This document shows, in pieces, positions 32,991-53,289 of a stretch of DNA of 64,000 bases. Numbering within the stretch: the stretch's first letter is position 1; each line of letters opens with the position of its first letter. The position numbers were made by a program, and so were the translations under genes. Origin of the DNA: Anaerolineales bacterium. GTDB lineage: Bacteria; Chloroflexota; Anaerolineae; Anaerolineales; UBA11579. Where the stretch lies: assembly GCA_019454165.1 (NCBI GenBank), contig CP075367.1:829971-893970 (forward strand). The letters run 5' to 3'. Under the pieces are notes generated by a model that was not told where the DNA came from, ran no database searches, and saw only the letters and a program-made list of their open reading frames with translations.

Positions 32991-34196
32991 ATGCGTATTC
33001 GTAACATCGCTCTTGGATTGCTCGGCCTGGCTTTGCTGGCCGTACTCGTATATCAAATTCCTTCGGTGAAAGAGCGTTTGGAGTGGCGGCTGGATCTGGC
33101 GCAGATCTTTGTGCGCAGCCGCCTCAACCCCGTGGGCGAGCTGCCGCCGCCCCAGATCGCCCAGAGCAGCACGCAGCCCGCGCCCACGCATACCCCGCCG
33201 CCGCCCACCGCCACGCCCGAAGCCAGCCCCACGCCGCTGCCGGCCAGCGTGCTGCTGCCGCCGCCGGCCCACATCACCCAGGGCCCCAACAACTGCGGGC
33301 CGGCCACGCTGGCCATGTACCTGCGCTTCTATGGTTGGGATGGCGACCAGTACACCATTTCAGATGAGATCAAACCCGTTTCGGCTGACCGTAACGTAAA
33401 TGTAGACGAGCTCGACTACTACGTACGCACGCGGGCGGGCTGGCTCAACACGTTGTTTCGCGTCAACGGCAGCCTGGAGCTGATCAAGCAGCTGCTGGCC
33501 GCCGGCATCCCGGTCATGGTGGAAAAAGGCCACACCATCGAGATCGATTATTTGTTCAACGATGACTACTGGAACGGCCACTACGCGTTGGTGACCGGCT
33601 ACGACGATGCTACCGGTGAGTTCATCTTCCAGGACAGTTACAACGGGCCAGACCAGCGCATGGACTATGCGGAGTTCGATGTGTGGTGGCTGCATTTCAA
33701 CCGCGTCTACAACCTGGTCTACCGGCCTGACCAGGCGGCTGTTGTGGAGGCCATCCTGGGCTCCGATTGGGATGCGACCACCAACCGCCAGAATGCCCTG
33801 GCGGCTTCTGAACTGGAAGTGCAGCAGCAGCCAGACAATGCCTTTGCCTGGTTCAACCTGGGCATGAACCAGACCTATTTTGCTGATTACAACAATGCCG
33901 TCGTGTCGTTCGATCAGGCTCGCGTGATCGGCCTGCCCATGCGCATGCTGCGCTATCAGTTCGGCCCCTTTTTCGCCTACTATCACACCAACCGGCTCGA
34001 GGATCTGGAGCAGCTGGTCGACTACGCCCTGGTCATCACCCCCAACTCAGAGGATGTGCTGATCTGGCGCGGTTGGCTGTTCCACAAGCAGGGGGATGTG
34101 AATGGGGCCATCCAGCAGTTTCGCATTGCGCAGCAAGCCAACCCCAAGTCCTTCTACGTTGAGCAGGCGCTGACCTCGCTCGGCGTGCAGCCGTAG
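32991..34196 (+). CDS. Membrane-anchored C39-like cysteine peptidase with C-terminal TPR-like repeats
   Basis: A 401-aa protein with one N-terminal membrane anchor (residues 5-22) and a Pro/Thr-rich linker (about 50-95). The peptidase_C39_2-type domain shows QGPNNCGPATLAM (nucleophile Cys102), NGHYALVTGYDD (His197) and FIFQDSYNG (Asp215). The C-terminal ~150 residues form two or three TPR-like helical pairs (AWFNLGMNQTYFADYNNAVV, IWRGWLFHKQGDVNGAIQQF). The catalytic domain should face outside the cytoplasmic membrane. Not linked to a bacteriocin exporter, so the substrate is unknown. Confidence 0.85.
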   Translation: MRIRNIALGLLGLALLAVLVYQIPSVKERLEWRLDLAQIFVRSRLNPVGELPPPQIAQSSTQPAPTHTPPPPTATPEASPTPLPASVLLPPPAHITQGPNNCGPATLAMYLRFYGWDGDQYTISDEIKPVSADRNVNVDELDYYVRTRAGWLNTLFRVNGSLELIKQLLAAGIPVMVEKGHTIEIDYLFNDDYWNGHYALVTGYDDATGEFIFQDSYNGPDQRMDYAEFDVWWLHFNRVYNLVYRPDQAAVVEAILGSDWDATTNRQNALAASELEVQQQPDNAFAWFNLGMNQTYFADYNNAVVSFDQARVIGLPMRMLRYQFGPFFAYYHTNRLEDLEQLVDYALVITPNSEDVLIWRGWLFHKQGDVNGAIQQFRIAQQANPKSFYVEQALTSLGVQP

Positions 34197-34239: not shown

Positions 34240-36312
34240 TCAGTTGATTTCCAGCAGAACGGCTTGCACCGCGCGGCGGTAGCGGTAGTTGCCGCTGACG
34301 GCGTCAAAGCTTTCACAGGTGATGAGCGTGATCAGGTTATACGGGCTGTCACCCAGAGCGGTCAGGCTGCTGGGCAGCACCAGCTGGTTGCTGCGCACTT
34401 CGTAGACGTAGCTGTAGCCGTAGGCGGTAATGGTGAAGCGGTCGCCGTGCTGCAGGTCTTTGAGGTCATGGAACGGCCCCGGGCGGTTGTCTGCATTCCA
34501 TACATGCGCGGTGAGCACACTGTTGCCTTCCCAGGTGGGGAAGCTGGTGCCGTACAGATAGCCGGCCTGTGAAGACGACAGCCAGGATACATCCCAACCA
34601 TTGACGCCTTGCGGCACGCCAACAATATTGAGCTCCACGCCCAGTTTGGGAATGCTCAAAACAAGGTCTGAGGCAGCGTAGGCCAACGCAGCCGGCTGCT
34701 CGGCCAGCCGCGTCACGGCGCCAGGCGCAAAGCCGGTGGCCGGCAAGGCCAGCTGGCCCAGGGTGAACAAAGACAGCAGCCGGGTCTGTCCGCATACATA
34801 GCCTGCCAGGCTGGCTTCAGAGCCCAGGGCGGCAAAGTCCGCGCCGTTGTGGCGATGGTAGACCCGCTTGTTGGTCACACCATCCAGCGGCCGGATACAT
34901 ACCGTGAGCGGGGCAGCAAACGCGCTGAGCTCACCGCTGTCGCAGCGGATTGTGACGTCGAATACCACATCATCCAGCGTGAAGCCGAACATCTTGGAGC
35001 CGTCGTTCAGCTCCTCGATCTGCAGCAGGCAGCCGGTCTGTCCCGCCGGAATGGCTACCGCGGGCACGGAGACGAGAATGCGCCCCAAGGTCAGCGAAGT
35101 GTTGCCGGTCGTGCCGATCGGCGTGCTGACAAACTGCGTGGGCGTCGTGGGGGTTTGTGGCGGCGAAGATGGGATGAACATGGCGATGCCATCTGCATCC
35201 GGGTCGCCGCCGGCATTGCTGAAGTAGCCTGCAGCGTACAGCACGCCATCGTGCAGCGCGAAGTCCAGGGCCGGGTTGTTGAGTCCGCTGCCCGGGCCGC
35301 CCAGTGAAGACCACACGCCATTCTCGAACTTGGCCACATGATCGCCGTCGGGGTCCCCGCCCGCGTTGCTGAAGATGCCCCCGGCGTACAGCACGCCGTC
35401 GATCATGGCTACCTTGTACACATCACCATTCAATCCGGCGCCCAGCCAGCCCCATGTGCCGCTCTGCAGCTTGGCCACATAGTCCGGCCCGGGGCTCAAT
35501 GTGCCCGCGTCGGTGAACTCGCCGCCGATGTAGAGCGCGCCGCTGCTGAACTCCATGTCGTGCACGGTGAGCGACAACGCCGTGGAGGCTGAATTCAACG
35601 GCAGCCAGCTTGAGCCGTCGAACCGGCTGATGTAGTTGGCGTTCACATCCCCGCCGGCCGCGGGGAAATCTCCCGCCGCATACACAGAGCCGCCGGCGAA
35701 CTCAATATCCCGCACCGTAGCGCCCGTGCCGGTGCCCAGCGCGCTCCAGGTGCTGCCGTTGAACATGGCGATGTAACTGGCCGCCGCGATGCCGCCGGCG
35801 TTGATGAAATCACCGCCGGCGTACAGGTTGCCGCTGTTGATCTCAATATCGTGCACATGGTTGTTGAGGCCGGTGGTGGCGCCGTTGAGCGAAGACCACA
35901 CTGAGCCATCGAACTTGGCGATCGAATTGGCATTCGGGTCGCCGCCCACGTTGCTGAAGCTGCCACCTATATAGATGTAAGTGCCGTCGTAAGCGATCGT
36001 GCGCACCAGTGCGCCCACGCCCAGGCCGCTGCCCAGCGCCACCCAGTTGCCATTCTCTAGCTTGGCAATTCCATCCGCGTTCGAGTCGCCGCCCGCGTCG
36101 GTAAAGTCGCCGGCGATGTACAGGTCACCGTTGATGATCTCGATGTCGTGCACATCGCCGTTAAGGGGTGGGGTGCCGAGCGAGGTCCACGAGCCCGTGC
36201 CAGCGGCCAGGGGCGCGATGGCTGCGGCCGTGGACGGCGCGGCCGCAGCCGGCGTGGGCCACATGGAAGCGAATAGAGCAGACAGGATGAAAACTGTAAG
36301 CAGCTTGTGCAT
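34240..36312 (-). CDS. Secreted beta-propeller protein fused to a sortase domain, with internal LPATG motif
   Basis: A 690-aa protein. A signal peptide (MHKLLTVFILSALFASM..., cleavage near AAAA) is followed by seven ~45-50-residue repeats of the type LYAGGxFxxAGGDxxADxIAxF, as expected for a seven-bladed propeller. Next is a ~130-residue beta domain with two Cys, then LPATG at residues 523-527. The C-terminal sortase domain begins SIPKLGVELNIVGVP. It has TAHVWNADN with the catalytic His603, TLITCESF with Cys666, and YRYRRAV with the Arg near 679. All three catalytic residues of a sortase are present. The gene diverges from hrcA. A full paralogue lies at 51082-53289. Role inferred: self-attached or polymerising surface protein. 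Confidence 0.85.
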   Translation of the reverse strand: MHKLLTVFILSALFASMWPTPAAAAPSTAAAIAPLAAGTGSWTSLGTPPLNGDVHDIEIINGDLYIAGDFTDAGGDSNADGIAKLENGNWVALGSGLGVGALVRTIAYDGTYIYIGGSFSNVGGDPNANSIAKFDGSVWSSLNGATTGLNNHVHDIEINSGNLYAGGDFINAGGIAAASYIAMFNGSTWSALGTGTGATVRDIEFAGGSVYAAGDFPAAGGDVNANYISRFDGSSWLPLNSASTALSLTVHDMEFSSGALYIGGEFTDAGTLSPGPDYVAKLQSGTWGWLGAGLNGDVYKVAMIDGVLYAGGIFSNAGGDPDGDHVAKFENGVWSSLGGPGSGLNNPALDFALHDGVLYAAGYFSNAGGDPDADGIAMFIPSSPPQTPTTPTQFVSTPIGTTGNTSLTLGRILVSVPAVAIPAGQTGCLLQIEELNDGSKMFGFTLDDVVFDVTIRCDSGELSAFAAPLTVCIRPLDGVTNKRVYHRHNGADFAALGSEASLAGYVCGQTRLLSLFTLGQLALPATGFAPGAVTRLAEQPAALAYAASDLVLSIPKLGVELNIVGVPQGVNGWDVSWLSSSQAGYLYGTSFPTWEGNSVLTAHVWNADNRPGPFHDLKDLQHGDRFTITAYGYSYVYEVRSNQLVLPSSLTALGDSPYNLITLITCESFDAVSGNYRYRRAVQAVLLEIN

Positions 36313-51081: not shown

Positions 51082-53289
51082 ATTCAGAAACTGTATTCTC
51101 CTGTTTTGCATATTGCCCTGACTTTGAGTCTACTGGCCGCTTGGCTGCCAACTCCAGCATCTGCGGCTACCTCCGCATCTGAAGGCGGATCTGATTCCCA
51201 ACCCTACTTACGCTCTGACGGCACTTTGGATGTGCCCGCTGGTTTCAGCGGCGGCTTCGATCTGAACGGCTGGGACGCGAGCCTGCATCCCAGCCGCGGC
51301 GTCCTGCTGCGCCCAAAGGCAGTTGGGGCGGGTGAGTGGGCCTCACTGGGCGGAGCGGGTACGGGATTAAATGGCACCGTATATGACATCGAGTTCCAGG
51401 GCGGGGTGCTCTACGCCGGAGGCTTTTTCACGGATGCCGGCGGTGACCCGGACGCCGATTACATTGCCAAGTTCAGCGGCGGGGTCTGGTCTTCGTTGGC
51501 TGGGCCAGGCAGCGGGCTTAACAACAGCGTGCACGACATTGAGTTTGATAGCGGAGTGCTCTACGCTGGAGGCCAGTTCACCGATGCGGGCGGCGACACG
51601 AACGCCGATCGCATTGCCAAGTTCAGCGGCGGGGTTTGGTCTTCGCTGGGCGGCGTGGGGCTGGGTAGCCCTGTAGAAGACATCGAGATCGATAGTGGGA
51701 TTGTCTACGTGGGTGGTTCCTTCACCAATGCTGGCGGCAATGCCAACGCCAATCACATTGCTCAGTTCGACGGGAGTGCCTGGTCCGCGCTGGGTGGTGG
51801 CTTGAACACCACGGTGCGCACTCTCGCGTTCAACGGCGGAGTGCTCTACGCTGGGGGAAGCTTCATCAATGCCGGCGGCGACCAGGACGCGGATCACATT
51901 GCCAAGTTCGACGGTGCATCCTGGTCTTCGTTGGGCGGGGCGGGCACTGGCTTGAGCAGCACCGTATATGACATCGAGTTTGACGGCGGGGTGCTCTACG
52001 CCGTGGGTGCTTTCACCGCTGCGGGCGGCAATGCGAATGCGGACCGCATCGCCCAGTTCAGCGGCGGGGTTTGGTCTTCGCTGGGCGGCGTGGGGCTGAG
52101 TGGCTTTACGTATGAGGTCGAAGTTGATGGCGGGGTCGTTTACGCCGGAGGCGCGTTTTCAGATACAGGCGGCGACCCCGACGCCGACGGCATTGCCCAA
52201 TTCAGCGGCGGGGTCTGGTCTGCCGTGGGCACGGGCCTCGGTACTGTACGCGATATTACATTCAACGCCGGAGCGCTCTACGCTGGGGGTGGTTTCACCG
52301 CTGCAGGCGGTGATCCTGACGCCGATAACATTGCCCAGTTCGCCTTGCCGGCAAGCGGCGGTGGCAGTAGTGGCAGCAGTGACAGCAGCGGTTCTTCCAT
52401 TAGCAAAGCCATCGTACCTAGCGGCGTCACCACGCTGGAGCTTGGGCGCATCATTGTTTCGGTGCTGGCCACGGCCATCCCGCCAGGGCAGACGGGCTGT
52501 GTGCTCACCATCCAGCAGTCAGCCGACAGCTCTGCGGTCTTCGGTTTCACCCTGGACGACACCGTATGGGATGTGAAAGTGCACTGCAATGGCAGCGAGC
52601 TGAGTATATTCTTTGACGCGTTGACTGTCTGTGTCCGCCCCGTGGATGGGGTGCTGGCCAACAAGAACGTATATCACAGCCACAACGCGGGCAGCTTCGA
52701 GCCGTTGTCGGGCGGCCAACTGAGCGGTTACGTTTGCGGGCAAACCCGCCTGCTCTCGCTGTTCACGCTGGGCCAGTTGGCGCTGCCCAATACTGGCTTT
52801 GCACCTGGCCGAGTCAGTACGCTGGCTGAGCAGCCCGCCGAAGCGGCCTATGCGGCCACGGACCTCTCGCTCAGCATTCCCAAGCTGGGCGTCGAGCTCA
52901 GTATCCTTGGAGTGCCGCAAAGCCCCAATGGCTGGGATGTGAGCTGGTTGCAAGCCAACCAGGCTGGCTACTTGTACGGCACCAGCTTTCCAACCTGGGA
53001 GGGCAACAGTGCCCTGACCGCGCATGTGTGGAATGCGGACAACACACCTGGGCCGTTCTATGAGCTCAAATCGCTGCAATACGGCGACCGCTTCACTGTC
53101 TCTGCTTACGGTTACACCTACACCTACGAGGTGCGCAGCAACCGCCTGATGTCACCGGGCAGCCTGGTGGCGCTCAACGATAGCCCGTACAACCTGATCA
53201 CGCTCATCACCTGCGAAAGCTTCAGCGAGCTGACCGGCGACTACCTGCACCGCCGTGCGGTGCAGGCAGTGCTGGTGGACGTGCAGTAG
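51082..53289 (+). CDS. Secreted beta-propeller protein fused to a sortase domain, with internal LPNTG motif (possible ATT start)
   Basis: Paralogue of the 34240-36312 protein, 735 aa if started at ATT 51082, which follows GAGGAG at the right distance. The start restores QKLYSPV before the signal helix, aligning with HKLLTVF of the paralogue. A TTG at 51106 is the fallback (727 aa). Seven LYAGGxFxxAGG repeats are followed by a Gly/Ser linker, the same Cys-containing beta domain, LPNTG at 568-572 and a sortase domain with TAHVWNADN (His648), TLITCESF (Cys711) and the Arg pair in HRRAVQAVL. The gene follows groEL after a terminator. An ATG-to-ATT change would lower expression; otherwise the frame is intact. 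Confidence 0.8.
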   Translation: MQKLYSPVLHIALTLSLLAAWLPTPASAATSASEGGSDSQPYLRSDGTLDVPAGFSGGFDLNGWDASLHPSRGVLLRPKAVGAGEWASLGGAGTGLNGTVYDIEFQGGVLYAGGFFTDAGGDPDADYIAKFSGGVWSSLAGPGSGLNNSVHDIEFDSGVLYAGGQFTDAGGDTNADRIAKFSGGVWSSLGGVGLGSPVEDIEIDSGIVYVGGSFTNAGGNANANHIAQFDGSAWSALGGGLNTTVRTLAFNGGVLYAGGSFINAGGDQDADHIAKFDGASWSSLGGAGTGLSSTVYDIEFDGGVLYAVGAFTAAGGNANADRIAQFSGGVWSSLGGVGLSGFTYEVEVDGGVVYAGGAFSDTGGDPDADGIAQFSGGVWSAVGTGLGTVRDITFNAGALYAGGGFTAAGGDPDADNIAQFALPASGGGSSGSSDSSGSSISKAIVPSGVTTLELGRIIVSVLATAIPPGQTGCVLTIQQSADSSAVFGFTLDDTVWDVKVHCNGSELSIFFDALTVCVRPVDGVLANKNVYHSHNAGSFEPLSGGQLSGYVCGQTRLLSLFTLGQLALPNTGFAPGRVSTLAEQPAEAAYAATDLSLSIPKLGVELSILGVPQSPNGWDVSWLQANQAGYLYGTSFPTWEGNSALTAHVWNADNTPGPFYELKSLQYGDRFTVSAYGYTYTYEVRSNRLMSPGSLVALNDSPYNLITLITCESFSELTGDYLHRRAVQAVLVDVQ

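Follow-up and report, generated by a model that had tools for sequence, protein, structure and literature searches.

Sortases are the enzymes which attach proteins to cell walls. Known sortases are separate, reusable and membrane-anchored, and they normally cut an LPxTG motif in other proteins, where this motif precedes a membrane helix and a basic tail. Some class C enzymes also carry a lid. D49-P50-Y51 anchors the lid of GBS SrtC1 (residues 44-55) next to the catalytic residues; the lid of S. pneumoniae SrtC1 contains D58-P59-W60 (PMC3166054). A GBS SrtC1 variant in which IPNTG takes the place of the lid, and which also bears C184A, crystallized with this motif disordered (PMC3166054). In sortase-tag expressed protein ligation (STEPL), a passenger, LPETG and a sortase are engineered into one chain, from which an added nucleophile frees the ligated passenger (PMC11561820). 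Within the open-licence literature on Chloroflexi or Anaerolineae sortases, self-processing or cis sortases and sortase domain fusions, we found no earlier description of fusions like those reported here.

The locus belongs to an Anaerolineales bacterium, whose phylum, the Chloroflexota, abounds in sludge and sediments. It lies in a 64,000-nucleotide stretch (hereafter the window) of contig CP075367.1 (assembly GCA_019454165.1). An open reading frame with an ATG start (34240..36312, minus strand, as are all its parts) encodes a protein of 690 aa, whose architecture was established from the frame and Pfam matches. Its hydrophobic N-terminus, followed by a stretch of small residues, is a predicted signal peptide (residues ~1-25, 36238..36312); this is the sole export signal and also the sole transmembrane-type helix. 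The passenger is a seven-bladed beta-propeller (residues 40-382, 35167..36195) with seven repeats of xGG type, six GG and one GT. It is matched by Pfam Rax2 (E=1.8e-7), and its model, built of repeated four-strand units, aligns with seven-bladed WD40-type propellers (VIA Z 26.8, rmsd 2.6, 271 aligned). There follows a Cys-containing beta domain (residues 394-520, 34753..35133; C428, C457, C472, C507), supported by modelled strands and common to close relatives in the alignment. The sorting motif LPATGF (residues 523-528, 34729..34746), recognized by its sequence and family conservation, has its predicted scissile bond at Thr526-Gly527. A linker of 21 residues (529-549, 34666..34728), poorly conserved in the family and of lower pLDDT, leads to the sortase domain at the extreme C-terminus (residues 550-689, 34246..34665), which is devoid of a transmembrane helix. 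This domain matches Sortase PF04203 at residues 552-685 (E=9.1e-19, 67.9 bits for a cut-off of 26.6), and its modelled fold agrees with solved sortases (VIA Z up to 18.1). The catalytic residues are His603 (34504..34506), Cys666 (34315..34317) and Arg679 (34276..34278). An earlier note on this DNA had picked out the seven repeats, the Cys domain, LPATG at 523-527 and the three catalytic residues, and all were recovered in the reading frame and alignment. It had also pointed out that LPATG directly precedes the enzyme; indeed, the 163 residues after LPATG consist of the linker and the sortase domain, with neither a hydrophobic helix before the C-terminus nor a positively charged tail. The convergent neighbour (32991..34196, plus strand) encodes a protein that is exported and combines a C39-peptidase-like region with TPR-like repeats.

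These properties echo those of LPXTG cell-wall-anchored proteins, which also display a signal peptide, a diverse extracellular passenger and LPxTG on the C-terminal side. The difference is that here the motif precedes a sortase domain, where the classical signal has a hydrophobic helix and a charged tail. With STEPL, the fusion shares the order of passenger, LPxTG, linker and sortase in one chain (PMC11561820). Yet STEPL is man-made whereas the fusion is natural, and self-cleavage of the latter is a prediction.

The window contains a second copy that the earlier note had missed, a paralogue of 727 aa (51106..53289, plus strand) with a propeller, a Cys domain, LPNTGF (52783..52800) and a sortase domain (52870..53277, PF04203 E 7.7e-17). 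A third fusion elsewhere in the source genome (G000) carries LPETGF behind a BNR-like passenger that differs from those of the window's two. According to a pattern search, these three fusions are the only secreted frames with LPxTGF in this genome. It also encodes two membrane-anchored sortases, both without motif. One of them, class E-like, adjoins a protein with IPITG, hydrophobic helix and tail (L002:402-1049 and 1201-1947; G000:C1 ~653420-654965), which shows that the ordinary sorting route is present too. Mur ligases are encoded as well, so that peptidoglycan precursors are made. In the near-identical genome ACE_CHL7, the open frame of the orthologue begins only in the Cys domain (L006:3755-4534), and its passenger frame looks broken, by frameshift or assembly error.

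The propeller-LPATG-sortase architecture is no single-gene curiosity and belongs to a large family. From Chloroflexota we gathered 138 passenger-motif-sortase fusions, the majority from the order Anaerolineales. Among 301 sampled Anaerolineales genomes, 183 have a match with E no higher than 1e-25, and about 155 of these score far beyond what ordinary sortases reach. In the phylum-wide sample, strong matches are confined to the same order, with the exception of L118, a passenger-less sequence from the same class which occupies the same place as L057 (see below). Among the relatives with names are the cultured Levilinea saccharolytica KIBI-1, whose fusion (L034) carries LPDTGFMPG, and a Thermoflexus MAG. 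The wider contig scan beyond Chloroflexota was queried with family-specific peptides only. A plasmid search gave one further fusion, the other matches being ordinary sortases of other bacteria. This fusion (L265, CP069395.1 73551-81260) resides on a 180 kb Chloroflexota plasmid, is directly followed by a heliorhodopsin gene and is annotated simply as 'DUF11 domain-containing protein'.

How strictly is the motif kept? In the 138 aligned members, Pro and Gly are invariant (138/138 each) and Thr is present in 136, replaced by Ser in 2; position 1 is Leu, Ile or Val in 129/138 and Phe follows Gly in 128/138. The catalytic residues display the same constancy, with His and Cys in 138/138 and Arg in 137/138. 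Among 62 representatives sharing less than 60% identity (mean 38.5%), the motif Pro, Thr and Gly are each found in 62/62, as are His and Cys, and Arg in 61/62. The earlier note had considered that LPxTG might be poorly conserved while the triad is kept; the motif turned out to be as conserved as the catalytic residues. On the other hand, the middle position x takes 15 different residues across the family, in the representatives neither x nor the positions immediately upstream of the motif exceed ~1.1 bits, and the stretch upstream and most of the linker vary. Since Pro, Thr and Gly are kept while x and the flanks vary, this is the profile to be expected from a sortase substrate and not from a structural segment.

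In every intact member the motif stands at one set position ahead of the sortase, while 70-aa stretches of the same passengers contain the xPx[TS]G form in 51 of 829 cases. This control rate, together with the invariance, rules out a chance motif. Ascertainment bias, in which the profile would favour motif-bearing rows, was checked as well. A search with a profile of the sortase core only, blind to the motif, gave the same conservation picture, and the rows lacking a motif were inspected individually. L196 has a frameshift right after LPSTGFRHG, in L042, L062, L135 and L138 the sortase is incomplete, being cut or broken, L057 is an open frame without passenger and L195 is cut off at a contig end. 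Two other members are unusual. In the NPLTGF fusion L137 (G458:C2:598209-598559), what seems to be an insertion element interrupts the sortase domain, and the frame ends before the catalytic Cys. In L095, a fusion of genome G303, the motif and linker are present as a tandem duplicate (LPSTGFRHGEVTQLPKQPAAPSLPSTGFRHGEVTQLPKQPAAK), resulting in two candidate cut sites.

Motif and membrane anchor are mutually exclusive in the compared sortases: those with a transmembrane helix have no motif, whereas fusions have the motif and no such helix. Sampled intact sortases without motif start with a strongly hydrophobic N-terminal helix, of hydropathy mostly above 1.9 (1.54 in one). Over 140 motif-bearing stretches, hydropathy reaches at most 1.68 in the 150 residues upstream of the motif (median 0.92) and 1.81 downstream (median 1.04). 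A tree of the sortase core (138 columns) places anchored sortases and motif-bearing fusions on opposite sides of its deepest fork, which is weakly supported (78). Rows without the motif that fall among the fusions are truncated, broken or without passenger; the long-branched lipoprotein L194 is placed unsurely. The latter (G530:C3:54874-55287) is a sortase without passenger or motif, with a lipoprotein-like signal (LLLLSGSSC, hydropathy 1.91). It comes from a genome with ~24 fusions, of which it is a possible trans-acting companion.

By sequence and fold, the fused enzyme is a sortase nearest to class C. S. agalactiae SrtC1 (3tbe, 3rbk) and S. pneumoniae SrtC1 (2w1j) are the top PDB profile matches, class C is the best NCBIfam subfamily, and fold comparison gives VIA Z 18.1, rmsd 2.6, 144 aligned and 24% identity. 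We do not file it as class C because it scores 45.5 bits for an NCBIfam cut-off of 160 and possesses neither the DP(W/F/Y) lid nor the anchor: it lies C-terminal to a large passenger, and the lid place holds LPxTGF. What class C enzymes and the fusion do share is a segment that precedes strand 1 and packs near the active site.

This arrangement is seen in the AlphaFold model of the motif-sortase part (30-row alignment, mean pLDDT 91.7). The earlier note had raised the possibility that LPATG is buried in a strand of the sortase fold; in the model the motif block is coil, with pLDDT ~93, followed by a linker at 88 then 74. Its position relative to the lid was read from the aligned residue ranges of the model. 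Alignments to lidded class C structures start at model residue 6-9 (first pairs, model-structure: 8-46 in 3tbe, 6-44 in 3rbk, 9-56 in 2w1j, 7-80 in 3o0p), which puts the motif over the lid region. Those to the lid mutant 3rbj, also of class C, and to enzymes of class A/E start, apart from a few exceptions, only at model residue 24-35. The model thus confidently packs the motif where the class C lid lies, a placement which may reflect AlphaFold's memory of class C lids. In the full-length model (11-row alignment) the sortase part folded poorly and docking was not displayed. The IPNTG lid mutant of GBS SrtC1 (3rbj, PMC3166054) similarly has a sorting motif in lid position. It differs by being engineered, with its catalytic Cys mutated, its motif disordered and no passenger. 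The fusion family has by nature what that mutant was built to carry, and constitutes a natural setting for the question of sortase lid function.

The passengers themselves are unrelated, ranging from subtilases and adhesins to propellers and ice-binding domains, with a mean column identity of 8%. Those of 57 members contain 53 Pfam families, foremost S8 subtilase, DUF11, PMP repeats and beta-helix. Within the same genomes, sortase modules 88-93% identical are borne by passengers without detectable similarity (e.g. L016/L017, L020/L021). The sortase module is thus portable and has been shuffled among passengers. Copy number varies from the three fusions of the source genome to ~24 in G530. In genomes G365 (97% complete) and G412 (92%), the single detected sortase is a fusion. 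In that of G365, an ice-binding-like domain is joined through a Thr/Pro-rich stalk to LPETGF and the sortase; its own LPxTGF is the sole one in frame in a secreted protein, the other pattern matches of this genome falling in short or unrelated frames. In G412, an MPGTGF match (L256) is followed by a hydrophobic stretch, but near the N-terminus of its frame and not at the C-terminal end. The search for partner substrates in these two genomes and the source genome covered proteins with the LPxTGF pattern.

We suppose that these proteins are probably self-sorting surface proteins: the fused sortase would cleave the Thr-Gly bond of its own motif, chiefly in cis, and hand the passenger over to an amine shared at the surface. 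After export via the signal peptide, the C-terminal sortase would fold and the LPxTGF strand upstream would thread into its own active-site groove, at the place of the class C lid. Cys666 would attack the Thr526-Gly527 bond, leaving a thioester between the passenger Thr and the enzyme. An amine common on the surface would resolve it, the likeliest candidate being a peptidoglycan stem peptide or lipid II, a plausible acceptor because the genome encodes Mur ligases. The passenger would end covalently attached while a sortase fragment of ~18 kDa, starting with GFAPG, would depart, the normal event being one turnover in cis. The sortase module would therefore stand in for the transmembrane-plus-tail sorting signal and could be joined to any passenger. 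Of the two outcomes imagined in the earlier note, self-cutting in cis is the best-supported reading, given one enzyme per passenger, ~24 copies in one genome and genomes in which the only sortase is a fusion. Cis action is favoured because an enzyme working in trans would not need so many copies, which is an argument and not a proof. Against self-sorting, we count the lack of a membrane anchor to keep the protein at the surface before transfer, the disorder of the motif in the GBS SrtC1 IPNTG crystal (PMC3166054) and the full-length model without docking.

The other outcome, fibres or propeller polymers, would require the fused sortase to work chiefly in trans, on other copies of the protein. 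Pilins are indeed polymerized by class C enzymes, structurally the nearest class, yet the propeller is one of many unrelated passengers, a good number of which are proteases or propellers, and no domain common to them could supply a common acceptor lysine. We therefore reject the polymer or pilus reading as a general explanation and regard predominant trans action between copies as very improbable. Cutting in trans by a separate housekeeping (class E-like) membrane sortase, with the fused domain as leftover or helper, is hardly credible: although two membrane-anchored sortases exist in the source genome, one of them adjoining an IPITG-helix-tail protein, none besides the fusion was detected in G365 and G412, and the fused domain perfectly keeps its own catalytic residues.

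Alternatively, the motif could be a lid that stays uncut, a substrate mimic closing the active site until other substrates are met, as does DP(W/F/Y) in class C pilus sortases. Its alignment with the lid region speaks for this, as does the fact that lids occupy the site and stabilize the enzyme (PMC3166054). Yet a lid does not require that Thr-Gly, the bond cut by sortases, be invariant with x left free, the source genome and G365 revealed no other secreted in-frame LPxTGF protein as target, and lidded class C enzymes serve several substrates instead of being dedicated to one passenger each. We consider this unlikely. Self-cutting could also proceed with water as nucleophile, releasing the passenger into the medium. 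The missing membrane anchor and the subtilases among passengers are in line with such a release; ice-binding, SdrD-like and DUF11 repeat passengers, on the contrary, are typical of surface-attached proteins, and an acceptor should exist since peptidoglycan precursors are made. Hydrolytic release thus seems quite unlikely.

If self-sorting is true, a substrate carrying its own enzyme would constitute a one-gene, portable module for covalent display and the natural counterpart of an engineered protein-ligation tool. With x unconstrained and Phe after the cut, the family would also be a source of new ligation enzymes. For Anaerolineales, we rather favour the existence of a display route in which exported proteins carry a single-use sortase whose lid is its substrate and are transferred in cis to the cell surface, the module having spread over unrelated passengers, ~24 in one genome, and being apparently the only sortase in some species. 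Such a route would explain how many large Chloroflexota surface proteins attach without a classical sorting signal.
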